DNA of 64,000 nt from Actinokineospora xionganensis. GTDB taxonomy: Bacteria; Actinomycetota; Actinomycetes; Mycobacteriales; Pseudonocardiaceae. Location: the NCBI RefSeq assembly GCF_014323725.1, contig NZ_JABVED010000004.1:62001-126000 (forward strand), given 5' to 3'. The stretch's first letter is position 1. Each line of letters begins with the position of its first letter. The notes under the pieces were generated by a model that saw only the letters and a program-made list of their open reading frames with translations, had not been told where the DNA came from and made no database searches. Positions 26,454 through 45,400 of the stretch are shown here, piece after piece. A program made the position numbers and the translations under genes.

Positions 26454-26809
26454 GCCGGCGTCCACAGCAGGCTTGACCGCTTGACCAGTGAGGGTGCGCC
26501 GGATTCGCCAGGCTCGGGCAGCCCGAGCAGATCCCGCACGACCTCTTGAAGGTCCGTTCCCTCCTTGGCCCACACGCAGCCGCCGCCGTAGGAGTCGTCG
26601 AGGACTCGGGCCGCGCTGACGTTGTGGCGGTCGAAGATGAAGAGGGCATCGGTGTATTGCCGGCGGCTGTAGCTTCCGACAATGCCGACCAGTTCGCCGC
26701 TCTCGTCGTAAAGGCCCCGGAACACCCAACCCGACGACCTGATCGTCACCAACTCGTGGAGTTCGGGGAACCGGCGCAGGGCGTCGCCTTCGGTGATCTT
26801 CTCGTTCAT
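26450..26809 (-). CDS. Unrecognised small protein, 119 aa
   Basis: A soluble protein opening MNEKITEGDALRRFPELHELV. The middle is beta-rich (SSGWVFRGLYDESGELVGIVGSY), then DALFIFDRHNVSAARVLDDS, and a helix TDLQEVVRDLLGLPEP. I do not recognise a family; similar short proteins recur in actinomycetes near XRE or ATPase genes. No catalytic motif or membrane segment. Four-base overlaps with both neighbours place it firmly in the operon. Confidence 0.7.
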   Translation of the reverse strand: MNEKITEGDALRRFPELHELVTIRSSGWVFRGLYDESGELVGIVGSYSRRQYTDALFIFDRHNVSAARVLDDSYGGGCVWAKEGTDLQEVVRDLLGLPEPGESGAPSLVKRSSLLWTPA

Positions 26810-27453
26810 CGGGTTGCTCCCGATGACAGGAGAAGCGTTCGAAGTTCACTGGCGATGATCACCGCGGACTGCTCCGCCGGTCGGGTCGTGCAGTCCACGG
26901 CCAGCACGGTGAAGCCCGCCTCGATGAGCCGTTCCTTCGCGTCTTTGTAATACGCGGCTTCACTGTGACTGCTACCCGGCGTCAGCTGGAAGCGGTTGTG
27001 TGGTCCGCGAGCTTCCAACCGCTCAGCGATGACGTCGGCGTCGGCTTCGAGAATCACGGCGAGGTCGGGGATCTCGACTTCCTCGTTGAGCTGCCACAGG
27101 AACGTCGGGTCGAGGCCATCGAACCGTTGGATCACCAGGCCGGAGGCGACGTAGCGATCGGACACGACAATGTGCCCGGACTGGAGAAGCCGTCGAATCT
27201 CGGTGTCGTAGTGGTGGTAGCGATCAGCCGCGTACAAACAGGCCAGCGCGTGGCCGGTGACCGTTTCGGTCAGCTCGGAGGCCAGCTTGCCGATCGGACC
27301 GGACGAGGGCTCGGCCGTGACGGTGACCTGTTCACCCTGGGCCACAAGCGTTTGCGCGAGGTGGCGGACGATCGTGGTCTTGCCCGCGCCGCTCGGCCCG
27401 TCGACGCTGACGAACAGGCCGAACCTGCGGTCAGAAGAGGGTTTCCCCGTCAT
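26806..27453 (-). CDS. dTMP kinase-like P-loop nucleotide kinase, 215 aa
   Basis: P-loop GPSGAGKTT after the VDGPS strand, then a thymidylate kinase-like DRYVASGLVIQR (the DRY/H motif of the family), and a C-terminal strand-helix region with HNRFQLTPGSSHSEAAYY in the lid position. The family phosphorylates dTMP or a related nucleotide. It is probably not the housekeeping enzyme, because it sits in an accessory operon and the lid differs from the usual Arg-rich form. I chose the ATG at 27451-27453 with AGGGGG eight bases upstream; a GTG three codons earlier is possible. It overlaps the exonuclease gene by 23 bases. Confidence 0.78.
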   Translation of the reverse strand: MTGKPSSDRRFGLFVSVDGPSGAGKTTIVRHLAQTLVAQGEQVTVTAEPSSGPIGKLASELTETVTGHALACLYAADRYHHYDTEIRRLLQSGHIVVSDRYVASGLVIQRFDGLDPTFLWQLNEEVEIPDLAVILEADADVIAERLEARGPHNRFQLTPGSSHSEAAYYKDAKERLIEAGFTVLAVDCTTRPAEQSAVIIASELRTLLLSSGATR

Positions 27454-28009
27454 CGCGACCACCCCCTGACGGTTCGTCGCGTAGCTCTTCCAGCGCCCGT
27501 CGGCCTGCGATCTCCACGAACAGCCGGGCCGTCACCAGCACGTCATAGGTCGCCCGATGCGGCGTGAGGTCGGCGGCGAAATCCGCTGCCAGCTTGAACT
27601 CATCGACCAGCGCGCCGAGCTTGTAGCTGCTACGACCGGGCAGCAGTCGGCGGGCCACCTTGAGCGTGTCGAACACCTCTGGGCACTCCCAGTCGCCGAG
27701 CTTGCGCTGAAGCACGCCAACATCGACATGTGCGTTGTGAGCGATCAGGGCGGAGGCGTCCAGCGCCTTGCGCACGTCGGCCTCGACGTAGCCGAACACC
27801 GGCGCGTCCCGCACGTCGTCATTGGTGATGCCGTGGATCTTGCGGGCGAAGTGCGTGATCGGCTGTTCGGGTTTGACCAGCCACGTCACCGGCTCGCCGA
27901 TGATCCCGCCGACGATCGGCACGGCGGCCAGCTCCACCAGATCGGGCGGCTGCTGGCCGTTGCCCTCGACATCGACCACCACGTAGCTCAGGCTCGTCCA
28001 GTCAGTCAT
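27431..28009 (-). CDS. DEDDh-type 3'-5' exonuclease (DnaQ-like), 192 aa
   Basis: The exonuclease motifs are in order: YVVVDVEGNG (motif I, D and E), then IHGITNDDVRDAP, LIAHNAHVDVGVL (motif II Asp), and LTPHRATYDVLVTARLF (motif III, His and Asp). This is a proofreading-exonuclease fold without a polymerase, like the epsilon subunit or RNase T-type enzymes. The C-terminal 20 residues are acidic and Gly-rich. It degrades single-stranded DNA or RNA from the 3' end in known relatives. It overlaps the radical SAM stop by four bases. Confidence 0.85.
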   Translation of the reverse strand: MTDWTSLSYVVVDVEGNGQQPPDLVELAAVPIVGGIIGEPVTWLVKPEQPITHFARKIHGITNDDVRDAPVFGYVEADVRKALDASALIAHNAHVDVGVLQRKLGDWECPEVFDTLKVARRLLPGRSSYKLGALVDEFKLAADFAADLTPHRATYDVLVTARLFVEIAGRRALEELRDEPSGGGRDDGETLF

Positions 28010-29157
28010 GCCGGTGTTCCCTTCCAGCCGATGTCCGCGCGCCCATGTCGGTTCGCGTGGTGCGGGTGGCGTTCGTCATGCACCTGGAAGCCAAGCGCGT
28101 GCTGGAGGAAGTAGCGCGGTTGCTCTTCCCACAAGCCCGACACGACGGCGGCCCGCCCGGTGATGTCTACGACCTCCAGCTCACGTGCCTCGGGCAACAC
28201 GCGGGCCACGTCGCGTACTTGTTCCGCGGAGGGGACTCGGTGGGCGTTCAGGCAGCGTTCGAGCTGGCTCAGCGGGCAGATGTCGCAAAGTTCCCGGATG
28301 CCGACGTGGCCGTTGTAGTCCGGCAGGCCGTGTGCGTAGGACACCGCGCAGGAGGTCTTGCGGAACAGCGCCGTCGTGCTGGAGAAGGCGTCGAGCACAC
28401 GGCGCTCCAACGTCTCGGGAACGATCTTCCTGCGGGCAGTGCCTTCGTAGGGCTCGGGGATGCCGTTCGCCTTGTAGTACTCCGCGATCTCGCCCCGGTA
28501 GAACAAACCGGTGAACACCGTGGCGTCGGCGTGCTTGCTCAACTCGAACGCGGTCGCCAAGTGCTCGTCGGTGTCGTTCAGGCCGGGGACGAGCGGTCGC
28601 CAGTACAGAACCGTCCGGTACTTCCGCACCTCCGGCGCGCTCATGAGCTTCAGGGACTCGGCCGCGATGTGCGACGGGTACGGCTCGATCTTCGGGTTGT
28701 CGATACCCGAGTACGTGAACAGCAGCGTCACCTTGAGGTGCCGGAGCTGGTTGAGCTGATCGGCGTCATCATCCGTGAGCTTGTGCCTGGTGATGACGAG
28801 CACGTGGTTGGTCAACTCGCGGGCATCGAGGTTTTCGAGCACCGCGAACGTGTGCGGCCGGACCTTCGGTAGGAACGGCTCCGTCGCCCGGTTGAACAAC
28901 TGGATCGGCGTGACGTGCGGCTGGAAGTAGCGGTGAGCCACCAGCTCCTCAACCGCCTCGGCATCGGACATGAGAGCTCGCGGTTGATTCTCATCCCATA
29001 GGCCGTAGGTGTGCCGTATGCAGTACGAGCAGCCAAGCGAACAGCCCTGAATGTGGTTCAGGCTCAAGCCGCTCTTGCGGTACTCCACAACCTCACGGGC
29101 ACGCTCGGGCAGGCGGTTGATCTTGTCTTGACTGAGCAACGGCACAGGTGTGATCAC
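28006..29157 (-). CDS. Radical SAM protein (spore photoproduct lyase-like branch), 383 aa
   Basis: The 4Fe-4S motif CX3CX2C (CSLGCSYC, residues about 39-46) is intact. The N-terminal half fits a radical SAM barrel (QLFNRATEPFLP, VLVITRHKL, LLFTYSGIDN, YRTVLYWRPLVPG). A second Cys group near the C-terminus (SCAVS, then ELCDICPLSQLERC) could hold another cluster or zinc. It resembles the COG1533/SPL group, some of which repair thymine photoproducts; the actual substrate is unknown. I prefer GTG 29157 with GGAG nine bases upstream; a TTG five codons earlier lacks a site. First gene of the five-gene operon. Confidence 0.8.
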   Translation of the reverse strand: MITPVPLLSQDKINRLPERAREVVEYRKSGLSLNHIQGCSLGCSYCIRHTYGLWDENQPRALMSDAEAVEELVAHRYFQPHVTPIQLFNRATEPFLPKVRPHTFAVLENLDARELTNHVLVITRHKLTDDDADQLNQLRHLKVTLLFTYSGIDNPKIEPYPSHIAAESLKLMSAPEVRKYRTVLYWRPLVPGLNDTDEHLATAFELSKHADATVFTGLFYRGEIAEYYKANGIPEPYEGTARRKIVPETLERRVLDAFSSTTALFRKTSCAVSYAHGLPDYNGHVGIRELCDICPLSQLERCLNAHRVPSAEQVRDVARVLPEARELEVVDITGRAAVVSGLWEEQPRYFLQHALGFQVHDERHPHHANRHGRADIGWKGTPA

Positions 29158-29220
29158 GCGGCTCTTCTCCAAGGTCAGCGGGGTGAACGCTTTGGAGAGT
29201 AAGTGCGCGACTACATAGCC

Positions 29221-30926: not shown

Positions 30927-31075
30927 TACATCGTGGCGCAGAGAGGGGTGTTCGTCAATGGGGGCGTGACCCAGTGCGCCGCCTGCCCCTGGCGTTTGGG
31001 TGATCGGACGTGGTTCGGTTGGAGCCGGAGCGAGTCGTCCTTCGAACCAAGGCCGATGAGTGGTACAAATCGGCA

Positions 31076-32518
31076 ATGCCATCGCTAGATGTGAACCAAC
31101 CGTTCGACTTGTTCGGGCAGTTCTGGACACCGAACGAAGCAGAAAAACAAGTACCAGGCAGGTTGTTCCGCACATCGGAAGGTATACGTATTCAGCTATT
31201 CGAAGACTTGCGGCCGGGACCAAGCTACGTGCCGCGCCATCAAGACGAGCAAGACCCAGTCTTCGAAGTAGTTGATTCCCCTGATGTAGATACTCCCCTC
31301 ACCATCCACGGCAGGATTGGCGAGCTGGTCGGAAAAGTCACAGCTTATGAATGCGTCACCGTGCAGTCCCGTTCCGACATGTTCAATGGTGGATTAGGTG
31401 AATATATTCTTGCTCCGATGGGTGTCATTTTTGGTGCCCATACAGCAGGCACAACTCAAGTGTTCTCTGGGGTTCGGATGCGAACCGCAAATATTGACGA
31501 GTGGGCCAGCCTTCAAGGGTTCTCTTCAACGAAAGGCGAGGATGGCACGAGGGGCTTGAACTACCGAGAGCCTTCGATTGAACCCATCCAGCTTGCGAAC
31601 GGCGCCGTTCTCTCCCTCAATCAGCGTGCGCACCTGGAAGGCCCCCACGTTCGAGGGGGCGCGATGACACGCGACGTATGGTTTCAGATTCAGAGTTTGC
31701 CGCCGAGTACTTGGTCAGCGATTGACGGCCGGATTGTGACACCGTTGTCGAGTCTCATAACTTTGTGCCTCGGTCGAGAAAATGGTTTGGTCGCCGCCCA
31801 ACTGACCTTTGATGGCGAGCGCTGGGTTGATCTCGTTTCGGATCACATTCGGTCTTCTCAGCCCGCCAACAGCCGAATCGAAGGTCTTGCTGGTCTTGCG
31901 GATTTAGGCCTGTCCGGCGTAGCAACATGGTTGAACAAAGTTGACAATCTAGGTCCACTACCTCCGGTGGTCGCGCATTTCTCGTCAAAGCGAGCCTCGA
32001 TAAAGTTCGAAACCGAGCTTCTCGAAATGACCACCGTAGCCGAGGGGCTGCATGCAAGACTATTTCCCGATGAGAAACGATTCAGCGATGCTGACTGCAA
32101 GCTGATCAGCGATCGAGTACTTCAGGCTGTCGGCGATATGGATGTCCGCGTTGTGGACGTCCTCCGCGGGATGCTTACTCACATTGGCGAGCCGGGGTAT
32201 CCGAGCCGCCTGAAGGGGTTGGCTCGAATCGTGGAAGCGGAAATCCCGACGATCTGCGGGAAGGTCAACAAATGGGCTCAGGTAGTGTCTAATGCTCGGA
32301 ATAAGTACGCGCATCGAACGGCAGGCTTTCTTGACGAAGCTGACATCGATACGCTTTTCACTGTCCTTGAATCGCTTAGATGGCTCCTCCGCTGCATACT
32401 ACTTTTGGAAGCCGGACTGGATAGTAAATTGCTCGCGGCTCGACTGCGAGACCTCAGCAGTTACCGACTTTTTCTCGAACGGGCGTCAGAGAACATACCC
32501 GCGGTTTATCGTGAATAG
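31076..32518 (+). CDS. apeA: ApeA-type anti-phage HEPN protein, 480 aa
   Basis: Residues 1-260 resemble the ApeA N-terminal domain: FDLFGQFWTPNEAEKQVPGRL, then GEYILAPMGVIFGAHTAG and GVRMRTANIDEW. Residues about 330-480 form a HEPN domain with RX4H in NARNKYAHRTAG (Arg408, His413). ApeA was named as an anti-phage defence protein; HEPN domains with RX4-6H are typically RNases that act on host tRNA or other RNA to abort infection. I chose ATG 31076, where conserved sequence begins; no clear ribosome binding site precedes it, and a GTG at 31010 would add 22 residues. Base composition is lower in GC than the flanks, suggesting transfer. The next gene follows after 70 bases. Confidence 0.82.
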   Translation: MPSLDVNQPFDLFGQFWTPNEAEKQVPGRLFRTSEGIRIQLFEDLRPGPSYVPRHQDEQDPVFEVVDSPDVDTPLTIHGRIGELVGKVTAYECVTVQSRSDMFNGGLGEYILAPMGVIFGAHTAGTTQVFSGVRMRTANIDEWASLQGFSSTKGEDGTRGLNYREPSIEPIQLANGAVLSLNQRAHLEGPHVRGGAMTRDVWFQIQSLPPSTWSAIDGRIVTPLSSLITLCLGRENGLVAAQLTFDGERWVDLVSDHIRSSQPANSRIEGLAGLADLGLSGVATWLNKVDNLGPLPPVVAHFSSKRASIKFETELLEMTTVAEGLHARLFPDEKRFSDADCKLISDRVLQAVGDMDVRVVDVLRGMLTHIGEPGYPSRLKGLARIVEAEIPTICGKVNKWAQVVSNARNKYAHRTAGFLDEADIDTLFTVLESLRWLLRCILLLEAGLDSKLLAARLRDLSSYRLFLERASENIPAVYRE

Positions 32519-32588
32519 CGATGCCGATGTGGCAATTCAGGATGTGAGATAATCACGTACATGGGATCGCGGCGAACTGGAAGACTTT

Positions 32589-34265
32589 ATGAAAGCTCAA
32601 GATGATGAGATCGCGCGGATGACGTTCGTTGATCTGCGCGACTACGTCGCACAACGCCTCGGCACCGAGGAGTGGCTGACTTTATACCGCTTCGATCCAT
32701 GGGGAGCGCCCGGTACCGAAGCAATGTTCTTCTGTGCGCTCGCGCAGCCAGACCATCTCGACGAAGCACTATCTGATGACGAATGGGATCTCCTTGTTGG
32801 AAACGGAGGCCCAGGGTTTGAAAGCTATAGCGGCGGTACGTATCGTTATGTTCGTATCGGCGACCGGCCTGTCGAGCCATTCATTCATTCACGTAGCTTT
32901 CCGGGCCCGAGTGAATCCTACAACGAGTTGTCCGAGGAGTTTCGACTTTTTCACAACCTGTGCGTAGATCAAAAGACGGGTCGTCACTTCCTGTTTGACG
33001 ACGGGGGCGATGAGGTCGATGTTGCGCGTGTGACTCCCGATCAGGTGCAGGTCCGGCTTCGCTACTTGAAAGAATATCTGGCTGCACGGGACATGTGTTT
33101 GCTGATATTCTTTGAGTACAATCGCTATTCCACCTTGACGCCCCTTGAGCTTGGCGTCGGTGATGAAGGTCGGTGGGAGGAGCAATACGCCGGGTTTCGA
33201 TTCAGTCAGTTTCTACTCGAGCCGTGGTTCAGCATCGATGCCCACAAGTCGGCAAACTCGATTGCACGCCTACGTGGCAAGAAGGTCGTTCGCCCTGGCC
33301 TAATTGCGGCCGACCACAAGCCATGGGACCGTAAGAAGACCTACGAAAATTTCATCATCGGTACGGATGAGAACGGCGAAGAGTTGCTTTTCACGAGCAA
33401 TGATGAGCAACTTGGAAACTACTTCGGAAAGAATCCTGAAGCTCCTCACTATTTGACGCCAGTCTTCTTTCGAAAACAAGTTTTGGCGAAGTACTACGCT
33501 GACGCGAGACGTTACAGGGTGTCTGACAGCAATCTGTCCTGTGTGAATTCTTGGAGCTTGCGGATCGACAACAATCACTCCTCCTACGTGACTGTGTTCC
33601 TTGGGGATCTCGGCCATCTTCCACAAAAGGAGCAATTGTATTGGAAAAGTTTTAACGTAGTTCCCGACGGCAGTATTAGCGCCACCTACTTTGGTCGGAG
33701 CATCTTGGGGCAATGGTTGGAACCGGAAGCGCCCGACCTATTGTTCAAGTCGCGTTATGAGCGATTCGGTCAAAAATGGTTTGCCAAGTTCGATTGGTAC
33801 TTCTTTAAGCCTTTAAAGGCGGCCGACGCGCACTACTTCGATACCCTTCACCTTCCAGACGATGGAAATCAGGCGGAGTTTGACTCTCAGGTCATGGCTC
33901 TGGCGAAGGTCCTGATCGAACGCATCAACGAGAAGGAGATCAGGAAGCACATTAAGGTCGAAGATCGTGAAGCGGGTATCAGCAAGTTGGAGAAGTATCT
34001 AACGGTTCAAGGATATCTTGACGCAGGCGATCGACTCCTCTTGCTGCGGAACCTTCAGGATCTCAGGAGTGGCCCCGCTCACGTTAAAGGCGAAAGATAT
34101 GAGCGGGCACTAACATATTTCCAAGTGGAGGATCTTGGGTACACCCAAGCATTCGGCGCGATCCTCACGTCGGCCATTGAACTGTTGGAGGCCCTATCAA
34201 CTCACTTCGGTATTGACGATGACGGCACCGATGACTTGAACGACCTCAAAGAGTCACTGACTTGA
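32589..34265 (+). CDS. Unrecognised protein with a C-terminal HEPN-like RX4H motif, 558 aa
   Basis: No family recognised. The N-terminal 200 residues are acidic and aromatic-rich (RLGTEEWLTLYRFDPWGAPG, LKEYLAARDMCLLIFFEYNRYST). The middle (about 230-420) includes GLIAADHKPWDRKKTYENFI and reads as a globular beta-rich domain. The C-terminal 130 residues are helical and include LLRNLQDLRSGPAHVKGERY, which has the HEPN-type RX4H pattern (Arg493, His498). No membrane segment. GGAAGA lies six bases before the ATG. It shares orientation and lowered GC with the ApeA gene 70 bases upstream, so the two probably form one unit. Function is inferred from motif and neighbour only. Confidence 0.75.
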   Translation: MKAQDDEIARMTFVDLRDYVAQRLGTEEWLTLYRFDPWGAPGTEAMFFCALAQPDHLDEALSDDEWDLLVGNGGPGFESYSGGTYRYVRIGDRPVEPFIHSRSFPGPSESYNELSEEFRLFHNLCVDQKTGRHFLFDDGGDEVDVARVTPDQVQVRLRYLKEYLAARDMCLLIFFEYNRYSTLTPLELGVGDEGRWEEQYAGFRFSQFLLEPWFSIDAHKSANSIARLRGKKVVRPGLIAADHKPWDRKKTYENFIIGTDENGEELLFTSNDEQLGNYFGKNPEAPHYLTPVFFRKQVLAKYYADARRYRVSDSNLSCVNSWSLRIDNNHSSYVTVFLGDLGHLPQKEQLYWKSFNVVPDGSISATYFGRSILGQWLEPEAPDLLFKSRYERFGQKWFAKFDWYFFKPLKAADAHYFDTLHLPDDGNQAEFDSQVMALAKVLIERINEKEIRKHIKVEDREAGISKLEKYLTVQGYLDAGDRLLLLRNLQDLRSGPAHVKGERYERALTYFQVEDLGYTQAFGAILTSAIELLEALSTHFGIDDDGTDDLNDLKESLT

Positions 34266-34567
34266 TGGCGAGCCATCGTGGCCCGCCTCACCCCGTGCTT
34301 CCTCAGCTTCTTCTTGATCGTGCTGGCATGAACGCCGTTTCGCTCGGTCAACGCCTTGGCCATAGCGCTCGACCGGTAGGCCTCGATCACCTCGGTGACG
34401 TCCTGCTCCGTGAGGATCTCCCGCACATGGTCAAGAGAGGCTGTCGTGCCTTCGATCGTGGTGGCCGTCTCGTGTCCGTCCTGGTCCGTGTCGTTGATCC
34501 GGCGCAGGACGTCCACCAGCGGTCCCACGAGGTTGGGACGGTTCGAATACCGGCGGAGACGCTCCAC
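34202..34567 (-). CDS. Small helix-turn-helix protein, mobile-element type, 121 aa
   Basis: The middle reads LTEQDVTEVIEAYRSSAMAK, then NGVHASTIKKKLRKHGVRR, a helix-turn-helix resembling the Hin/resolvase C-terminal DNA-binding domain, and similar to short actinobacterial genes near serine recombinases. There is no catalytic recombinase domain, so it may be a stand-alone adaptor or the remnant of a mobile element. GTG start. Its 3' end overlaps the convergent unknown gene by 64 bases; the last 25 residues, in the overlap, look non-conserved. Confidence 0.55.
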   Translation of the reverse strand: MERLRRYSNRPNLVGPLVDVLRRINDTDQDGHETATTIEGTTASLDHVREILTEQDVTEVIEAYRSSAMAKALTERNGVHASTIKKKLRKHGVRRATMARHQVSDSLRSFKSSVPSSSIPK

Positions 34568-34671
34568 CCGCGTCGCCTTACTCGAACCCCTCTAAAGCAC
34601 AGCGTTCAGCAGGCTGCTCGGGGAGAAGGTCAGCGGCGTATCTATGAATTGCCTCCCGAGGAGGACCCGAG

Positions 34672-35272: not shown

Positions 35273-36040
35273 TCACCGCGGGCCGGCCACCCACGGCCGC
35301 AGTGCCGCCGAGACGATCCGGTGCGTGGACACCGCCTGCTCGAACACCGCGAAGTGCCCGCCGACGAGCGTGTGCAGGTCGGTCGACGCGGAGGTCAGCT
35401 CTTGCCAACGTTGCTGGCGGGCCAGGCTTGCCCGGGGGTCGTCGGTCGAGGCGAGGATCGTGATCGGGACGTCCGTCACCGGTTCCGGCACGTACTCGTA
35501 CGCCTCGCGGACGGTGAAGTCGCCGACGATGGCGGGCAGGATCATGTCCACCGCGCCGGCGTCGGCCAGCAGCCACTCCGGTGTCCCGCCGAGCCTGCGC
35601 AGCATCGCGATCAGTTCGGGGCGGGTCATCCCGGTCACCGGCGGGCCGTCGTCGACACCGCACTGCGGAGCGGCGCTGCCGGAGACGATGAGCCGCACGG
35701 GCGCCGGTCCCCCACGCCTGCGGATCTCCCGCAGCAGTTCGAAGCCGACGAGCGCGCCGTGGCTGTGCCCGTACACCGCGTACGGGCCGTCGACGGTCTC
35801 CAGCACCACCGACGCCAACTCCTCCACCAGCGGGCCCATCCGCTCGAACGCGGGCTCCCGCAGCCTGGACTCCCGCCCCGGCGGCTGGACCGGGTGCACG
35901 GCCACCCCGGGCATCCGGTCCAGCCAGGTGCGGTACGCCGAGCCGCCCGCGCCCGCGTGGGGCAGGCAGAACAGCGGCAGCCCCGGCCGGGTCAGGGCCC
36001 GCAGCGGCAGCCACCGGGCCGTGACGTCGACCGCGGTCAT
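35273..36040 (-). CDS. Type II thioesterase, 255 aa
   Basis: An alpha/beta hydrolase of the discrete editing-thioesterase group. It has LFCLPHAGAGGSAYRTW, the oxyanion region VQPPGRESRL, nucleophile Ser93 in YGHSHGAL, and the catalytic His in VGGHFAVF. Type II thioesterases remove stalled or wrong acyl groups from carrier proteins, keeping the PKS active. The start overlaps the FkbH-like stop (ATGA), and the gene is last in the right-arm operon. As no integrated thioesterase is visible in this window, it might also aid release, but editing is the usual role. Confidence 0.92.
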   Translation of the reverse strand: MTAVDVTARWLPLRALTRPGLPLFCLPHAGAGGSAYRTWLDRMPGVAVHPVQPPGRESRLREPAFERMGPLVEELASVVLETVDGPYAVYGHSHGALVGFELLREIRRRGGPAPVRLIVSGSAAPQCGVDDGPPVTGMTRPELIAMLRRLGGTPEWLLADAGAVDMILPAIVGDFTVREAYEYVPEPVTDVPITILASTDDPRASLARQQRWQELTSASTDLHTLVGGHFAVFEQAVSTHRIVSAALRPWVAGPR

Positions 36041-37110
36041 CCCAGCACCTCGACAGTGACGTAGGCGGGCGGCGGCTGCAGGGTGGACAGGTCGTTTTCC
36101 AAGACCACCTCGTCGCCGTGCCTGCCGACCTCGCGGAACCCGGCGAAGGCGTAGGTGATCTGCATCATCCGGTTGCGCCCGGTCTCCACGAAGTCCGCGC
36201 GGACCGTGACCTCGGCCGCCTTGGCCAACCCCATGATGTGGTTGAGCAGCACCATTCCGACGCCGCGCGACATCACCCGGCACGACATGAGCAGCATGCG
36301 CAGGTGCCAGACCCGCTCGCCCTTCTCCACCAGCGCCAGCCCGATCTTGCCGTAGCCGCCGAACTTGTCGGTGAGCGACGCGACCAGCAGCAGGTGGTCC
36401 GGCGAGGTCCGCAGTTCGTCGAGGTCCTCGTAGGAGTAGGTGCGGCCGGTCGAGTTGAGCTGGTTGGTGCGCACCGTCAGCTCCTCGGCCCGCTGCAGAT
36501 CCTCCTGGCGCGCGGGCTCGATGACGAACGAGAGCCCCAGGCTCGACAGGAACTCGTCGTTGGTGCCGACGAACTCGCGTTCCAGGTCGTCGCGGGCGAT
36601 CTGGCCTGCGTACATCTCGCGCCGCTTGGCCGACTCGTCGGTGACGAACCGGGGGATGAACTCGGGGCGGGCCAACGCCTCGTCGAGGTCGGCCACGTCC
36701 ACACAGGTCACCTCCGGCACGCCGTGGCCGACCTCGGCCCGCTCGAACTCCTGGTCGTCGATGAAGGCGAACGCGTCGAGGCCGAGGTTGAGCGCGCCGG
36801 CGATCCGCCGGATCGACTCGGACTTGGCGTTCCAGTTCGCCTGCGGGAACAGGAAGTACTCGGCGATGCCCAGCTCCCGCAGCTTCGCCATGGCCGCGTC
36901 GTGGTCGTTCTTGCTGGCGACGGAGTGCAACACCCCCATGCCGTCGAGCCTGCGGATGTGGTCGAGGACGGCGGGCCGCACGGCGACCTCGCCGTCCTCA
37001 AGTAACACCCCGTCCCACAGCGTGTTGTCGAGATCCCACACCACGCACTTGATCCGGCCGCGCACCGGCTTCTCCGGCGCGGGCGCCTGACGTTCTTCGA
37101 CGGTGGTCAC
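36037..37110 (-). CDS. fkbH: FkbH-like glyceryl-ACP synthase, 357 aa
   Basis: A HAD-type N-terminal domain with DLDNTLWDGVL (DxDxT nucleophile) and a C-terminal GNAT-like half (NQLNSTGRTYSYEDLDEL, LMSCRVMSRGVGMVLLNHI). FkbH proteins take 1,3-bisphosphoglycerate, dephosphorylate it and load a glyceryl group on a dedicated ACP, the first step to hydroxy- or methoxymalonyl-ACP. The start is GTG at 37110, coupled by GTGA to the dehydrogenase stop. Length matches FkbH of FK520-type clusters. Gene order K, J, I, H is preserved. Confidence 0.92.
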   Translation of the reverse strand: MTTVEERQAPAPEKPVRGRIKCVVWDLDNTLWDGVLLEDGEVAVRPAVLDHIRRLDGMGVLHSVASKNDHDAAMAKLRELGIAEYFLFPQANWNAKSESIRRIAGALNLGLDAFAFIDDQEFERAEVGHGVPEVTCVDVADLDEALARPEFIPRFVTDESAKRREMYAGQIARDDLEREFVGTNDEFLSSLGLSFVIEPARQEDLQRAEELTVRTNQLNSTGRTYSYEDLDELRTSPDHLLLVASLTDKFGGYGKIGLALVEKGERVWHLRMLLMSCRVMSRGVGMVLLNHIMGLAKAAEVTVRADFVETGRNRMMQITYAFAGFREVGRHGDEVVLENDLSTLQPPPAYVTVEVLG

Positions 37111-38264
37111 CGCGTCATCTCCCGGTATGCCTCGCCAGCGATGGTCATCCGCTGGACCTCGTTGCTGCCCTCGATGATCTCCATCACCTTGGCGTCGCGG
37201 TAAAGCCGCGCGACCGGGTAGTCGTCGCCGCACCCGTTCGCGCCGTGGATCTGGACCGCCTCGGACGCGTGCCGGGCGGCGGCGGTGGAGGCGAAGTACT
37301 TCGCCACCCAGGTCGCCATCAGGGTCGACGCCTCACCGGCGTCCTTGAGCCTGCCCGCCTCCGCGCACAGCATGCGGGCCGCCCGCACGTCGGTGACCAT
37401 GTCGGACACCTTCGCCTGGATCAGCGGCATGGTCCGCAGCAGCTCGCCGCCCACCCGCCTGCGCGAGGTGTAGTCCGCGCAGGCGTCCAGGCACGCCTGG
37501 ATGATGCCCACCGACCCGCAGGCCACGCTGTAGCGACCGAGGTCCAGCGTGCCGGTCAGCACCATCCCCGCGGTGAACCCGCTCGGGCCCACCAGCGCGT
37601 CGCCGTCGAGCCGAACGCCCCGGAAGGACACCTCGGCGAGCATGGACGCCCTGGTGCCGAGGATCTCCGGGATCGGGCGCACCTCGACCCCGGGGGTGTC
37701 GCGCGGCACGAGGAACGCGCCGATGCTCGCGTCGGTCTTGGCGAAGACCAGGAACACGTCGGCCCGCTGCCCGCCGGTGATCCACTTCTTGACGCCGTCG
37801 AGCACCCAGCCGCCGCCGGCGGGCACGGCGCGGGTGCTGATGCCCGCCGCGTCGCTGCCCGCCTCGGGCTCCGAGAGGCAGAACGCGCCGAGCGCCTCGC
37901 CCCGGGCGAGGACCCCGGCCCACCGCTCGCGCTGCGCCGCGGTGCCCCAGCGGCGCACGGTCCAGGAGACCATGGTGTGCACGGTGAGCAGGCTGCGCAC
38001 CGACGAGCAGCCCCGCCCCACCTCCTCGTGCAGCTCGCCGAGAGTGACCATGTCGATCCCCGCGCCGCCGTCCTCGACGGGCAGGAACGGCGCCCACAGA
38101 CCGGCCGCGCCGATGCGGTCGAGCAGGTCCTCCGGCACGGCGCCCGCGCGTTCGAAACCGTTGGCGTGCGGGGTGATGTGCGTGTCCACGAAGGCCCGCG
38201 CCGCGGCGCGGTCGCGCACTTGGTCACCCGGCGGTGCGAGCAGCACCGGGGCGGCCACCGTCAC
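37107..38264 (-). CDS. fkbI: FkbI-like acyl-ACP dehydrogenase, 385 aa
   Basis: Acyl-CoA dehydrogenase fold: LWAPFLPVEDGGAGIDMVTL, FCLSEPEAGSDAAGI and WVLDGVKKWITGGQRADVFLV (flavin region), then AVQIHGANGCGDDYPVARLYRDAKVMEIIEGSNEVQ with the catalytic Glu in the EGSNE position. In extender pathways FkbI and FkbK oxidise glyceryl-ACP to hydroxymalonyl-ACP. GTG start overlaps the ACP stop (GTGA). It is clearly different from the dehydrogenase at 24.6 kb, so the two likely have separate substrates. Confidence 0.9.
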   Translation of the reverse strand: MTVAAPVLLAPPGDQVRDRAAARAFVDTHITPHANGFERAGAVPEDLLDRIGAAGLWAPFLPVEDGGAGIDMVTLGELHEEVGRGCSSVRSLLTVHTMVSWTVRRWGTAAQRERWAGVLARGEALGAFCLSEPEAGSDAAGISTRAVPAGGGWVLDGVKKWITGGQRADVFLVFAKTDASIGAFLVPRDTPGVEVRPIPEILGTRASMLAEVSFRGVRLDGDALVGPSGFTAGMVLTGTLDLGRYSVACGSVGIIQACLDACADYTSRRRVGGELLRTMPLIQAKVSDMVTDVRAARMLCAEAGRLKDAGEASTLMATWVAKYFASTAAARHASEAVQIHGANGCGDDYPVARLYRDAKVMEIIEGSNEVQRMTIAGEAYREMTR

Positions 38265-38515
38265 ACCCCCGCCGGGGCCGGCGAGAGCCTGCCGACCAGC
38301 GCGGCCATCGAGTCCGCGGTGCGGAAGTGGTCGAGCTGCAGCTCGTCGTTGGGGATGGTGACGCCGAAGGTCTTCTCCACGAACATGACCAGCTCCATGG
38401 CGAACAACGAGTTCACGAAGCCGAGCTGGAAGATGTCCTGCGCGGCGTCGATCTCCACCTGCGGGTAGCGGCCGCGGATGAAGGTGAGGATCTGCGCCTG
38501 GGCGGTGTCGGACAT
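38261..38515 (-). CDS. fkbJ: Discrete acyl carrier protein (FkbJ-like), 84 aa
   Basis: A small acidic carrier protein with the phosphopantetheine site in QLGFVNSLFAMELVMFVE; the serine follows Asn instead of the common Asp, as in FkbJ-type carriers. It holds the glyceryl to hydroxymalonyl unit during processing by FkbH, FkbK and FkbI. The ATG at 38513-38515 has AAAGGAGA seven bases upstream. Located 29 bases after the FkbK-like stop. Confidence 0.92.
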   Translation of the reverse strand: MSDTAQAQILTFIRGRYPQVEIDAAQDIFQLGFVNSLFAMELVMFVEKTFGVTIPNDELQLDHFRTADSMAALVGRLSPAPAGV

Positions 38516-38544
38516 GCTGTTCTCTCCTTTGTAGACGGTGTAAT

Positions 38545-39408
38545 TCAGTGGGTGACGCGGTTGGAGCCGCGGTAGTCGTAGAAGCCCCGGCCGGTCTTTC
38601 GGCCGTGCAGCCCGGCGGCGGTCATCTCGCGCAGCAGCGGGCACGGGCGGTACTTGCTGTCGGCGTAGTGCTCGTAGAGCACCTCCACGCTGTAGAGGAT
38701 GGTGTCGACCCCGATCAGGTCGGCGGTCTCCAAAGGGCCCATGGGATGGCCGAAGCAGCCGCGGAACACCTCGTCGACCGACTCGGCGGTGGCGACGCCC
38801 TCGTGGACCAGGAAGGCGGCCTCGTTGACGGTGAGCATGAGCACCCGGTTGGAGATGAACCCGCAGGCGTCCTTGACGTCGACGGCCTTCTTGCCCATCG
38901 CGGTCAGCAGCGCCTTGGTGCGCTCGACGGTCTCCGGCGTGGTGTGGAAACCGGGGATCAGCTCGACGGTGGCCTTGGCGGGCACCGGGTTCATGAAGTG
39001 CACGCCGACCACCTGGCCGGGCCTGCCGGTCACCGCGGCCACCTTGGTGATGGGGATGGCCGAGGTGTTGACGATGAACACCGTCTCCGCGCCGCAGGCG
39101 GCGTCGAGCGCCTCGTAGACCTCCCGCTTGACGTCCCAGTTCTCGGTGACGTTCTCGATGACCACGTCCGCCTTGGCCACCGAGTCCGCGCCGATGCCGG
39201 TGCTGATCCGCGACAGCACCTCGTCGGCGTCGAGCACCGGGCCGCCCATGAGCCCGCTGAGCCTGCAGTTGTGCCTGATGGTCGCCAGCGCCTCGGTGAG
39301 GATGGCCTCGCTGGTGTCGACCAGGATCACCTCGTGCCCGGTCTGCGCGAGGTTCTGGGCCACTCCGACGCCCATCACCCCCGCGCCGACAACTCCGATC
39401 ACGGTCAT
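38545..39408 (-). CDS. fkbK: FkbK-like 3-hydroxyacyl dehydrogenase, 287 aa
   Basis: A 3-hydroxyacyl-CoA dehydrogenase: Rossmann motif GVVGAGVMGVGVAQNLAQTG at the N-terminus, VVIENVTENWDVKREVYEAL, the catalytic region NTSAIPITKVAAVTGRPGQVVGVHFMNPV, and the C-terminal domain with GFISNRVLMLTVNEAAFLVHEGVA and HPMGPLETADLIGVDT. In the FkbG-K pathway it oxidises the hydroxyl of glyceryl-ACP. The ATG follows GGAGAGG. It lies 25 bases after the bimodular PKS stop. Confidence 0.9.
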   Translation of the reverse strand: MTVIGVVGAGVMGVGVAQNLAQTGHEVILVDTSEAILTEALATIRHNCRLSGLMGGPVLDADEVLSRISTGIGADSVAKADVVIENVTENWDVKREVYEALDAACGAETVFIVNTSAIPITKVAAVTGRPGQVVGVHFMNPVPAKATVELIPGFHTTPETVERTKALLTAMGKKAVDVKDACGFISNRVLMLTVNEAAFLVHEGVATAESVDEVFRGCFGHPMGPLETADLIGVDTILYSVEVLYEHYADSKYRPCPLLREMTAAGLHGRKTGRGFYDYRGSNRVTH

Positions 39409-39433
39409 GACCTCTCCATTTCTCTGGTTGTTG

Positions 39434-42400
39434 CTAACGGGCACGCCGCCGGGCGGCGGATGCTTCGAGGCCGGATCGGCGCAGCTGCGCGCGGACATGG
39501 CTGTCGCCGTCGTCCGGGTTCGCCGCCGACGTCGCGCCCGCGGCGGCGGCGTCGATCACCTTGGCCAGCGCGGCCACGGTGGGCGCCTCGTAGAGGATGT
39601 GCGGCGGCAGTTCGGCGAGCCCGAACTCCGTGCGCAGAGCGGTCACGATGGTGACGCCGAGCAGTGAGTTCCCGCCCAGTTCGAAGAAGTTGTCGCCGAC
39701 CCCGACCCGCCGCAGCCGCAGCGACTCGCACCAGGTCTCGGCGATGGTCTCCTCGGTGTGTCCGGACGGCTCCTGGTAGAAGGTCACCAGTTCCGGGCGC
39801 GGGTGTCGTTCCCCGCCGCCGCCCGCGGGGGCGGTGACCGCTTCCAGGGTGAACCGGGCGCTGCCCGTGACCACGGTCTCGAAGTCCTGTGTGGACACCA
39901 CGACCCTGGTCTCGCCGCTGTTCACGGCGCGCAGCAGCGAGCGCCAGCCGTCGTCGAAACCGATGCCGAAGCGCGCCCGGTTCTCCCGGAAGAACTTCTG
40001 CAGCTTCTCGTCGTACCCGGCGAGGCCGTCCTCCCAGGCGTTCCACGTCCACTCGCCCCAGCCGACCGAGAGCACCCGCCGACCGGTCGCGGCGGCCTGG
40101 TGGGCCCACGCGTCGAGGAAGGCGTTGGCGGCGCAGTAGTCCACCTGCCCCGGGCCGCCGCCGGTGGCGGAGGTGATGGAGGAGAACAGGACGAGGAAGT
40201 CCAGATCGATCTCGTCGGGCTCGCCGATCCGCAGCGCTTCGGCCACCGCGAGGGTGCCGGCGATCTTGGGCGCCAGCACCTGGTCGAGCTCCTCGTGGCG
40301 CTTGAACTGCATCAGCCCCATGGACGGCACGCCCGCGGCGTGGATCACCCCGTGCAGGCCGCCGAACCGCTCGACGGCGACGTCGACCGCGCGCCGGACG
40401 TCGGCGGTCACGGCCACGTCGCCGACGACGATCTCGACCTCCGCGCCGTCGGCGATCAGCCGCGACACCTTGGCGACCCGGGCGGCGGTGGCTTCGTCGA
40501 CGGCGACTGTTCCGGCGAGGACACCGGGCCAGTCGGCGCGCGGCGGGAGGCCGCTTCGGCCCAGCAGCACCAGTCTCGCCCGGCACTCGCGGGCCAGGTG
40601 GTCGGCCAGGCCCAGCGCGATGCCGCCGAGCCCGCCGGTGATCAGGTAGACGCCGCGGGCCCGGAGCACCGCGGTGTCCGCGTTCTGTTCCGCGGTCGGG
40701 GAAAGCGTGGGCGTGGGCAGGGTGGTGGACATGGCCTCGTAGCCCGGAACCCACCGCCTCCCATGCCGCAGCGCCACGATTCGGTCGGTCAGGGGCGTGC
40801 GCAGTTCGTTCGCGACCGACGCGGGGGACGCGCCGTCGTCGAGGTCGATCAGGCGGGCGGTGACCTTCGGGTACTCCAGCGGGATCACCAGGCACGGCCC
40901 GGTGAGGGTGGCGCCGTACGGGTTGGTGACGTCCTCCCCCAACACCTGTTGCGTGCCCGCGACCGCGATGTCCAGCGACCACGCGTCCGCCCCCAGTTCG
41001 CCCGCCGCCCGGGCCAGCGCGACCAGGGTGTGCAGCCCGTGGGAGACGGTCTGCTCGGCGGCGGCGGGGTCGAGGGTCCACAGGTGGGTCACCCGCCGCA
41101 GGGGGCGACCGGCCGCGCGCAGGTGGCGGAGCATGGCGCGGGTGTCGTCGACGTCGCCCGGCCGGACCGTGTACCCGTCGTCGGTGACCGCGTACGCCTC
41201 GCCCGGTCGGACCAGGCTCACCGGGCCGAGCCGGGACGCGATCTCGTCGGCCCGCCCGTCGCGGGTGTAGACCAGCCACGACTCCGGCCGCTCGGCGGGC
41301 GCGGGCGCGGCGGTCTGACGCCACACCGGCAGGTGCTGCCACTGCTCCTCGGGAAGCTTCGGCAGGGTGGCGATGGCGTCGAACAGGTTCGCCGCGTCCG
41401 GCAGGGCGAGTGCCTGGCGCTGTCCGGGAATCCTTGGCGCGGCGTCGATCCAGTAGCGCTGCCGCTGGAACGGGTAGGTCGGCAGCGGCACCCGGCCGGG
41501 CAGCGCGGCGTCGTCGGCCCGTTCGGACCCGCGACCGTGGTAAGCCGCCCAGTCGACGTCCACGCCGAGCAGCCACAGCCGGGCCAGGCAGTCGGTGAGG
41601 ACCGCGTCGTCCGGGCGGCTGTCGCCGGCGGCGGGCAGCGCGCTGAGGATCTGGGGCCAGCGCGGCGGCGGGCAGCCCGCGGACCGCAGGAGCGCGCCGA
41701 GCGACTGACCGGGGCCGATCTCGACCACGGCCAGTTCCGGGTCGGCCAGCAGCGCCTCGGCCGCGGCGGCGAACTCCACCGTGGCGCACATGTGCCGGGC
41801 CCAGTACGCCGGATCGCACACCAGCGCGGCGTCGGCCCGCTCACCGGTGGCATTGGAGATATACGGCAGGTTCGGCGGGTTCAGCGTGATGTTGGCCCGC
41901 ACCCACTCGGTGAGCTCGGCGCCGATCGGCGCGAGCATCCTGCTGTGGAAGGCGTGCGTGGTCCGCAGCGCCCGGCACGCGACCTCGTCGCGGCGCAGGT
42001 CGGCGAGCAACGCGTCCGTCGACTCGACGGGACCGGCCAGCACGACGACCTGGGGTCCGTTGACCGCGGCCACGTCGAGGCCCCGCTCGTCGATGCCGTA
42101 CCGCTCGCGCAGTTCGGCCACCGTGAGCGACACCGCGACCATCGCGCCGGGGTCGGCCGTGCCGATCAGCTTGGCCCGGTGGGCGACCAGGGCCAGCGCG
42201 TCCGGCAGGGAGAGCACGCCCGCGAGACAGGCCGCGACGTACTCGCCGAGGCTGTAGCCGAACATGATCTCCGGGCGCAGCCCCCAGGCCATCATGGTGC
42301 GGGCCAGGGCGTACTCGACGGCGAACAGCGCGGGCTGGACGACCTCGGTGCGCTCCAGCGCGTCCGCGCGCGGGTCGTCTGGAGCGGCGGAGCGGCCGAG

Positions 42401-45400
42401 CAGGGCGCCCAGATCGGCCCCGGCCGCCCGCTCCCCCGCCACCAGATCCACCAAGTCCACGTCGAGCGAGTCGCGCAGCAGCGCGGCGCACTCGTCCAAC
42501 TCGGCGCGGAACACGGGTTCGCGGCGGTACAACTCACGCACCAGGCCCGGGTACTGCTCGCCGACGCCGGCGAACAGGAACGCGACCCGCCTGCCGCGCA
42601 CCGCGTCCACCCGGCCGAGCAGCGCGCCGCCGGACAGCGCGGCGACCGCCTCGTCGGTGCTGCCCGCGACCAGCGCGCGCCGGTGCTCGAAGGTCTTGCG
42701 GCCGACTTGGAGGGTGTAGGCGACGTCGAGCAGCCGGGTCTGCGGCGCCGCCGCCAGGTGCGCGGCGAGCCGCTCGCAGGACTGGTCGATGGCCGCGGTG
42801 TTGCGCGCGGACACCGTCACCACCTGATAGCGCCGGGCCGTGTCGGACTCGGCCCGCGAGACCTCGCGGACCGGGGCCTGCTCGACCACCACGTGCACGT
42901 TGGTGCCGCCCATGCCGAGCGAGTTGATGCCCGCGATCGGCTTGCGCCCGCCGCGCGGCCGCCACGGGGTGAGCGCGGTGTTGACGTAGAACGGGCTGTT
43001 CTCGAAGTCGATGTCGGGGTTGGGGCTGGTGTAGTGCAGGCTCGGCGGGATCACGCCGTCACGCAGGGCCAGCGACGTCTTGATCAGCCCGGTGACCCCG
43101 GCGGCGCGGTCCAGGTGCCCGATGTTGGTCTTGACCGAGCCGATCGGGCAGTACTGGGTGGTCTCGGTGGGCCCGAACGCGCGGGTGAGCGCGGCGACCT
43201 CGATGGGGTCGCCGAGTTCGGTGGCGGTGCCGTGCGCCTCGATGTAGCTGACGTCCTCGCCCGTCACCCCGGCGTTGGCCATGGCGTCGGCGATGACCCT
43301 GGCCTGACCGACCACGCTGGGCGCGGTGTAGCCGACCTTGAGCGCCCCGTCGTTGTTCATCGCCGAGCCGCGGATCACCGACCAGATGTGGTCGCCGTCG
43401 CGCAGGGCGTGCGAGAGCCGCTTGAGCACGACGACGGCGGCTCCGTCGCCGAACATGCTGCCGCGGGCCTGGGCGTCGAAGGTCCGCACGTGCCCGTCCG
43501 GGGACTCCATGCCGCCCGGCGCGAACTCGTGGCCGACCTTGTCCGGCACCCGGATGGACACCCCGCCCGCGATGGCGAGTTCGCAGTCGCCCCCGCGCAG
43601 GCTCTGCATCGCCATGTGGGTGGCGACCAGGGACGTGGAGCAGAAGGTCTGCACGGCCACGCTCGGGCCGTGCAGGTCGAACAGGTAGGACACGGTGGTG
43701 GTCAGGGCGTCCTTCTCGTTGCCCATGATGATCTCGTAGGTGCTGACCTCGCCCTCGGCGAACATCTGCTCGGGCATCCGCAGCAGGTAGGTGCTCAGGT
43801 TGGTGCCGCCGAACACGCCGACCCGGTCGCGGTTCTCCGGCGCGGCGTAGCCCGCCTGCTCCAGCGCCTCCCAGCAGACCTCCAGGAACAGCCGCTGCTG
43901 CGGGTCGGTCAGGGCCGCCATCCGCGGGCTGATGCCGAAGAAGGACGCGTCGAACCCGGCCACGTCGTCGAGCACCGGTCGGGCCGGGACGTAGGCGGGG
44001 TCGCCGATCAGCTTCGGGTCGACCCCGGAGTCGAGCAGCTCCTCCGGGGTGAAGAAGCTGATGGACTCCACGCCGTCGCACAGGTTGCGCCAGAACGTGG
44101 CCACGTCGGCCGCGCCGGGGAACCGGCCCGCCATGCCGACCACCGCGATCGGGTCGTCCACATCGGGCTCGGCGGTGGTCGCGCGCGGGGCTCGGGCCAC
44201 GACCGCGGGCGCGGCGACCGTCCCACCCTGCTGGTCCAGCATGACGGCGAGGGCCTGCACCGTCGGCGCCTCGAACAGGGCCACCGACGGCACGGTGAGC
44301 CCGGAGCGCTTCTTGACCAGGGCCAGCATCTGCAGGGCCAGCAGCGAGTTGCCGCTCAGGTCGAAGAAGTTGTCCCGGGTCCCGACCGGCTCGACGCCGA
44401 GCACCTCCGACCACAGCTCGGCCAGCATCCGCTCGGTCGCCGACAGCGGCGGGCTGTAGGGCTGGGGCAGGTCGGGGCGCGGGAACCGCTCCCCCGCCGC
44501 GACCGGTTCGCCGAGGACGGTGGTGACCCGCGGGAGCCGGTCGTCCAGTCCGCCCGCGGCGACCACGATCTCGGGTCGCCCGGCGGCGAGCAGCCCGTCG
44601 AAGGCGGCGAGCCCCTCGGCGGTCGTCATGGAGTGGGCGTGCATGACCGCGCCGAAGCCGCCTTCGATCTTGGCCAGGGTGCAGGCCCAGGTGTCCCACT
44701 CGGCCGCGATCCACGTGGTCGGCGAGTCCGGCCGGTGGGCCACGGCGGTGAGCGCCGCGTTGGCCGCGGCGTAGCTGCCGAACGCCAGCCCGCCCAGGAT
44801 CGCCGAGGTGGAGGCGAACACGAGGCAGAATTCCGGCGCCTCGGGCAGGTCGGCCAGCGCCTCGGCGAGCACCCGGGCGCCGACCACCTTGGCGCCGAAG
44901 TGCCGGTCGACGGCGTCCTGGTCGAGGTCGCGCAGCGGCCGGAACGTCTCCGGGCCGGTCTGCGCGGCGGCGTGGACCACCCCGTGCGGCGTGCCGATCT
45001 CGTCGAACAGCGCGCGCATGGCAGCCGCGTCGGTCACGTCCACCTTGGGCGTGCGGACCTCCGCTCCGAGCGCGCGCAAACGCTCGACAGCGGCCCGGCG
45101 GCCGTTGCCGACGCCGGCGCGGCTGGTCAGCACCAGCCGCCCGGCGCCCGCCAGGACCAGGTGCTCGGCCACCAGCAGCCCGACGTCGCCGAGACCGCCG
45201 GTGATCAGGTAGGTGCCGCCGGGGCGGATCGAGAGCGCGGCGCCCGACTTGCCCGGCTCGACGGGGACGAAGGAGCGGACGTGCCTGCGGCCGGCGCGGT
45301 ACGCGGCGAGGACGTCCTGCGAGCGGTGCCGCAGTTCGCCTGCCAGCGCGCGGACCGCCGCCTCGAGGTCACCGTCCGGGTCCAGGTCGACGGCCCGGCA

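Follow-up and report, generated by a model that had tools for sequence, protein, structure and literature searches.

The window analysed here is a stretch of 64,000 nt of Actinokineospora xionganensis (contig NZ_JABVED010000004.1, positions 62,001-126,000 of the forward strand; all coordinates below are window positions) in which the gene for ApeA is followed, on the same strand and after a gap of 70 bases, by the gene for a second protein that we call ORF2, from the open reading frame (ORF) that encodes it. The interpretation we favour, with a probability of roughly 0.58, is that ORF2 represents a widespread family of stand-alone ribonucleases (RNases) in which a putative sensor part is joined to a HEPN domain, and that here a member of this family is packed together with ApeA; it draws on conservation among relatives, on a predicted structure and on analogy with described proteins. 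A sequence-only reading of this DNA had seen the two genes as a tandem pair of proteins carrying one RX4H HEPN-type motif each, and had taken them for a possible two-component RNase system. The two ORFs, their common strand, the spacing and both motifs (R408NKYAH413 and R493SGPAH498) are as it described them, and the proposal was half right: ApeA and a probable second HEPN protein share a cassette that was found in three genomes. The features of the two proteins are as follows.

31076-32518, plus strand: ApeA, 480 amino acids (aa), with an N-terminal ApeA domain and a C-terminal HEPN RNase domain (Pfam, PADLOC)
32021-32428, plus strand: HEPN domain of ApeA, residues 316-451, with R408NKYAH413 (PF18739 match and motif)
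32589-34265, plus strand: ORF2, 558 aa, of a family without a name, with a strand-rich N-terminal part and a HEPN-like C-terminal domain (relatives; model with a predicted local distance difference test score, pLDDT, of 90.5)
32589-33716, plus strand: residues 1-376 of ORF2, a possible sensor or ligand-binding region (model)
33861-34226, plus strand: HEPN-like domain of ORF2, residues 425-546 (model; PF18735 profile match)
34065-34082, plus strand: catalytic-type motif R493SGPAH498 of ORF2 (R and H invariant in relatives)

An RX4H string by itself is no evidence for a HEPN domain, since at least one was present in 62% of shuffled ORF2 sequences (and in 53% of shuffled ApeA sequences), and the motif alone was rejected as an argument. 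The evidence comes from its conservation. R493 and H498 were invariant in all 49 relatives of our alignment, A4 (L052, L063 and L064 as well as fragmentary relatives were left out of it and of the tree), and in 52 of 52 members of a wider set that includes distant plasmid members; the 49-member alignment holds eight invariant columns, these two among them. ORF2 contains three RX4-6H strings and only RSGPAH is kept among the relatives, the R and H of the other two being found in 23 and 33, and in 3 and 3, of the 49 sequences. The spacer between R and H has five residues in 43 relatives, while 4 have a spacer of four and 2 one of six. R is followed by S in 48 relatives and by N in the remaining one, a polar residue in every case. 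Position 444 is acidic (D or E) in all 49 relatives, and N447 is found in 44. In an excerpt of PMC3710099, an Rx4-6H-type motif, a polar residue after the R and an acidic residue are given as features of the HEPN superfamily.

The C-terminal profile of ORF2 was compared with sets of three HEPN families (PF18735, the ApeA HEPN domain and DUF4145), with column shuffles as control. The core columns of ORF2 scored 24.6 against PF18735, while the highest of 100 column shuffles reached 15.2, and in the profile-profile alignment the R and H of ORF2 were in register with those of PF18735. With the uncut alignment the score was 22.9, which was reached by none of 54 control clusters of neighbour proteins (maximum 21.2); the two control clusters with known or possible HEPN proteins, namely ApeA and a protein with the motif RNAIAH (L014), scored 20.7 and 20.6, respectively. 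Among themselves, the known HEPN sets gave 23.7 (ApeA with PF18735), 23.5 (ApeA with DUF4145) and 15.6 (PF18735 with DUF4145). The AlphaFold model of ORF2 (mean pLDDT 90.5, predicted template modelling score 0.81) divides the protein into a part with 35% strand and 20% helix (residues 1-376) and a C-terminal part of 182 residues with 67% helix and 1% strand (residues 377-558). Helices of the predicted HEPN-like domain comprise residues 428-444, 463-473, 484-494 and 518-539, and R493SGPAH498 lies at the end of the third of them (484-494) and runs into a loop. The end of helix 3 is also where the excerpted text of PMC3710099 places the HEPN motif.

Several results weigh against this assignment. 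No library names ORF2 as HEPN: at E-values up to 1 it matched no family in Pfam, PADLOC, NCBIfam or PHROGs, so that the earlier description of the second protein as unrecognised holds. For its 49 aligned relatives, Pfam at E up to 0.1 listed 10 families, none of them HEPN and nothing convincing, and PADLOC at E up to 0.01 gave 0 families. A search for solved structures with the ORF2 sequence returned nothing convincing, and a Foldseek search of the full-length model against the PDB (E up to 10, 383 matches) had no match at E 0.001 or better and no recognised HEPN entry among the best 50. The profile comparison gave no signal with the ApeA HEPN set (12.0, with 13 of 100 shuffles as high) or with DUF4145 (8.8, with 78 of 100 as high), and the hhalign probability of the match to PF18735 was 4.9% (E 0.008 for one target). 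Scores in the twenties can be due to chance, because a long unrelated neighbour cluster (L068) reached 27.1 against the ApeA HEPN set. Less clear-cut is the acidic position 444: it lies at the end of the first counted helix (428-444), and the HEPN criterion places this residue, when present, in helix 2, near the motif. With regard to function, the neighbourhoods of ORF2 relatives are mixed, the commonest PADLOC family accounting for 5 of the 140 neighbour proteins scanned (of 176 with 130-600 aa; these counts come without a background rate).

Taken together, the idea that the second protein is HEPN-like stood as far as the invariant R and H, the acidic residue, the match to the PF18735 profile and a helical model with the expected helix order and the motif at a helix end are concerned, and no solved HEPN structure was recognised among the best 50 of the 383 matches to the full-length model. 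ORF2 thus probably ends in a HEPN-type RNase domain. Because the match to curated HEPN profiles fails, we call it HEPN-like and consider that it probably represents a new HEPN family, belonging to none of the named ones.

The identity of the first gene is clear: it encodes ApeA, as the sequence-only reading had proposed. The protein matches PF18862 (E 2.4e-18, 67 bits at a cut-off of 25.5) and PF18739 (E 1.6e-14) in Pfam and the models PDC-S58 (5e-14) and Cas13-ApeA (2.7e-8) in PADLOC, and carries R408 and H413. A start at 31076 was favoured over that of the longer ORF at 31010 because the relative in L182, a locus from another genus of Pseudonocardiaceae, begins at the matching residue. No relatives of ApeA were found in phage records at E 0.001. 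ApeA was reportedly first described by Gao in 2020.

Together with a small gene that is convergent to ORF2 and resembles helix-turn-helix (HTH) genes, the two genes make up a cassette with the following elements.

31059-34568, no strand: whole cassette, alike in the window and in L182 with different flanks (blastn 71% to L182)
31061-31070, plus strand: possible extended -10 box before the ApeA start, TGGTACAAAT (TGGTATAAA in L182; candidate from sequence comparison)
32543-32553, plus strand: conserved intergenic TGTGAGATAAT, possible extended -10 box of an ORF2 promoter (TGTGCGATAAT in L182; candidate from sequence comparison)
34202-34567, minus strand: small HTH-like gene at the far end of the cassette (identity of 67% to the L182 relative and of 82%, over 96 residues, to that in L031; weak PHROG HTH match)

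In L182, both proteins are full length, with 63% (ApeA) and 82% (ORF2) identity to those of the window. The likeness between the two loci spans 31059-34568 and then stops, and the flanks differ; the part of the HTH-like gene stretch common to both is 34268-34567. In Actinokineospora enzanensis (L031), window positions 32156-34568 are alike at 70% (blastn), and elsewhere there were only short, chance-like matches; its ApeA frame is incomplete, starting only at residue 181, and its ORF2 frame is intact. By eye, the sequence before this ApeA frame looked transposase-like. The HTH-like gene, which has a weak match to a PHROG HTH family (E 0.003), stays at the end of all three cassettes. Since the stretch 31059-34568 is alike and its flanks differ, ApeA, ORF2 and the HTH-like gene recur as a cassette, which is present in three Pseudonocardiaceae genomes. 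Between the window and L182, the proportions of nonsynonymous (pN) and synonymous (pS) differences were 0.24 and 0.77 for ApeA and 0.09 and 0.73 for ORF2, the synonymous sites being close to saturation; both proteins appear to be kept by selection. The lower GC content ascribed to the pair was confirmed, with 0.51-0.55 over 31001-34000 versus 0.70-0.77 over the adjoining DNA to the right (39001-49000). Low GC is common in acquired DNA.

Outside these three genomes the pairing is rare. We searched with BLAST for the window's ApeA beside 79 places of the ORF2 family (59 contig loci of the collection, 3 further class loci, 11 plasmid regions, 5 Pseudonocardiaceae loci and the window), several of which lie at contig ends, BLAST detecting near relatives of ApeA only. 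ApeA stood beside ORF2 in 3 of the 79, namely the window, A. enzanensis and L182, and beside none of the other 76; two Pseudonocardiaceae relatives of ORF2, at 56% and 50% identity, also had no ApeA beside them. Conversely, the ORF2 profile had no match in 25 other ApeA neighbourhoods (the neighbourhood sets exclude G222, with a weak ApeA match at E 9.7e-4, and G560, a fragment with a stop). Hence, as regards co-occurrence, the pair does recur in different surroundings, and the proposed two-component system was not borne out: ApeA and ORF2 are probably not an obligate pair.

At the level of whole genomes, PF18739 (HEPN_Apea) was found anywhere in 9 of 50 ORF2-holding genomes and in 1 of 19 further genomes or records, and among these ten ApeA adjoins ORF2, by contig and position, only in A. 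enzanensis. The frequencies in the class are 15 of 296 genomes for HEPN_Apea and 6 of 394 for ORF2. An ApeA-like gene was present in three of the six ORF2-holding class genomes (the window's own, G383 and G098), too few for a rate; in G383 (detected via the window's ApeA) and in G098 (via PF18739) it lies on a contig other than that of ORF2, and the species of G383 had no HEPN_Apea match in the PF18739 scan.

The two boxes listed above suggest a separate promoter for each gene. The 11 bases of TGTGAGATAAT are identical in the window and in A. enzanensis and show one change in L182. Since a consensus scan listed neither box and found 2 promoter-like sites versus 1.9 in shuffles, the boxes are kept as putative promoters.

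ORF2 itself was found in 6 of 394 class genomes (the window's own included), in 16 plasmid records and at 59 loci of a one-genome-per-species collection. Phage records held no relatives at E 0.01, and four pattern matches in viral contigs included no relative. A tree of 56 members, in which the window and A. enzanensis pair by themselves, carries 19 phylum names, and the gene has therefore probably moved widely. Near some relatives there are genes for an oligonucleotide cyclase, type I methyltransferases, AlwI or a DUF488 set, and several neighbours are metabolic. In two Pseudomonas loci, ORF2 relatives come directly after gmtX in gamma-mobile-trio loci (L007, by annotation; L056, by neighbour similarity). 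A DUF4238 (PF14022) gene is the immediate neighbour of an ORF2 relative on one Rhodococcus and one Streptomyces plasmid (L009, 7311-8324, and L012, 6891-7901) and of ApeA on another Rhodococcus plasmid (L208, 2510-3610), as if ORF2 and ApeA occupied slots of one type. On the Rhizobium plasmid pRL8, a protein without a Pfam match (L014, 3313-4227), encoded two genes away from a distant relative of ORF2, carries RNAIAH in its C-terminal part and is possibly another unrecognised HEPN.

PIN domains were present in 10 of the 140 neighbour proteins. At 10 loci (L042, L045, L047, L049, L052, L053, L062, L063, L064 and L072), the stop of the ORF2 relative overlaps by four bases the start of a 136-aa gene, and the two such genes tested both encode PIN domains; at L050, the matching PIN frame is interrupted. 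The taxa of this PIN-coupled subclade are Caldilineaceae, Poribacteria, Latescibacterota and Nitrospinota, and the eight rows covered share about 40 extra C-terminal residues. By eye, this extra tail has the look of an antitoxin tail. It matched no Pfam family below E 0.2, and a search at E up to 0.01 for stray antitoxins resembling it returned a single match, the ORF2 relative itself, in each of 6 genomes.

Of the described systems, ApeA (PF18862 and PF18739; PDC-S58 in PADLOC) is a single-gene anti-phage HEPN protein, and the first gene of the cassette is one. ORF2 resembles it in having a strand-rich N-terminal part, a C-terminal helical domain and an R-x-H motif, but differs in that it shows no profile similarity above shuffles to either ApeA domain and in its motif, RS(x)nAH with mostly five spacer residues, the ApeA sets having mostly RNxxxH. 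The possibility that ORF2 is a diverged ApeA was thus unsupported, its N-terminal profile scoring 14.4 against the N-terminal part of ApeA, with 11 of 30 shuffles as high. HEPN_RiboL-PSP (PF18735) gave the best profile match to the C-terminal domain, with the motif in register, although ORF2 has no Pfam match and has its own N-terminal part of 376 residues. In the table of a review, PF18735 is listed for PD-T4-2, PD-T4-5, PD-T7-3 and ApeA (PMC10952713, in part). A title in the reference list of PMC13405049 has deoxydinucleotides as activators of ApeA. As a mechanistic model for ORF2 we take Tha of S. aureus prophages, likened by description, which an excerpt of PMC11087260 presents as a stand-alone protein with a C-terminal HEPN R-x4-H motif and a phage-protein trigger; unlike ORF2, it has 301 aa and, according to the same excerpt, no discernible N-terminal domain. 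The PIN-coupled subclade can be likened, again by description, to eukaryotic Swt1, in which an excerpt of PMC3710099 reports a HEPN dyad with PIN in one fusion, with a partly conserved motif, whereas the subclade has two genes. The top Foldseek match of the ORF2 model was Avs3 bound to phage terminase (8dgc; E 0.011, probability 1.00), which we record as a lead. Among the papers listed in literature searches there was nothing on the ORF2 family or on a paired ApeA, and the accessions of 6 relatives led to 0 papers.

In the remaining surroundings of the cassette, the minus-strand genes at 35273-39498, which adjoin it, look by eye like an extender-unit set (thioesterase, FkbH-like, acyl-CoA dehydrogenase, acyl carrier protein and 3-hydroxyacyl-CoA dehydrogenase) and lead into what we take to be a large polyketide synthase. 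To the left, at 26806-29172 (minus strand), there is a row of thymidylate-kinase-like, RNase T-type exonuclease and radical SAM genes, the last below cut-off.

On the reading that we favour, the C-terminal ~130 residues of ORF2 would form a HEPN RNase domain with R493, H498 and the acidic residue 444, the active form of which would presumably be a homodimer, and the strand-rich N-terminal part of 376 residues would hold the enzyme silent until a trigger linked to infection or stress appears. Triggered ORF2 would then cut RNA and stop the cell. The logic would be that of other stand-alone HEPN defence proteins, such as Tha, realised through a different N-terminal part. ORF2 would be packed beside ApeA in a mobile cassette in three Pseudonocardiaceae, the window's genome among them, so that the cell would carry two HEPN RNases, probably with different triggers and probably under separate promoters.

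The leading alternative is that the C-terminal part of ORF2 may be an unrelated helical domain in which R and H are kept by happenstance. It would account for the failure to recognise a HEPN structure among the best 50 of the Foldseek matches to the full-length model, for the two HEPN profiles that went unmatched and for the low hhalign probability of the third; chance can produce a score of 27.1 against ApeA HEPN. We consider it unlikely in view of the joint invariance of R, H, the polar residue after R and the acidic residue, of a match to PF18735 that is in register and exceeds all 100 shuffles and all 54 clusters, and of a motif placed at the end of a helix and followed by a loop. A similar degree of doubt applies to ORF2 being a HEPN RNase with a stress or regulatory role, or an inactive RNA binder, that sits in the cassette by chance. 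Mixed neighbourhoods across phyla, with several metabolic neighbours, would fit such a protein; a patchy spread over distant phyla and plasmids, the invariant catalytic-type residues, the linkage to ApeA and the restriction-modification or cyclase genes near some relatives would not.

The remaining alternatives concern the way in which the genes of the cassette work together. That ApeA and ORF2 function only jointly, forming a mixed HEPN dimer, for instance, or sharing out sensing and cutting, is suggested by their adjacency and common orientation in three genomes whose flanks differ, by low pN relative to pS in both, and by the ApeA-like gene in half of the six ORF2 class genomes, two of these genes being on other contigs. 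This is improbable, however, given that ApeA is beside ORF2 at 3 of 79 places (by BLAST) and the ORF2 profile is missing from all 25 other ApeA neighbourhoods, that a conserved promoter-like box separates the genes, that A. enzanensis has an intact ORF2 frame beside an ApeA that starts only at residue 181, and that neither the HEPN domains nor the N-terminal parts of the two proteins are detectably alike. We regard as equally improbable a layered pair in which one RNase guards the other, so that inhibition or activation of one by a phage, or its products, would trigger the second, and the three-gene cassette would be a defence with a back-up. Least of all do we expect a toxin-antitoxin locus in which ORF2 would be the toxin and either ApeA or the small convergent HTH protein would keep it in check. 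The three genes do stay together in three cassettes, and the subclade with a short extra tail that overlaps a PIN RNase gene recalls such loci, but ApeA is missing beside most places of the ORF2 family (by BLAST), and 29 of 110 genomes of the host family have a relative, for the most part a weak one, of the HTH-like gene, versus 8 of 390 for ORF2, the HTH gene not having been searched beside other ORF2 relatives.

If the stand-alone sensor-HEPN reading is true, the ORF2 family, with its 19 phylum names, would be an overlooked group of sensor-HEPN RNases that bring in a trigger sensor of a new kind, the strand-rich N-terminal part. Two natural combinations, with ApeA in the cassette and with PIN in the subclade, would make the stacking of RNase defences in bacteria directly testable in laboratory strains. 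The ORF2 family itself, more than its pairing with ApeA, would then be the important result.

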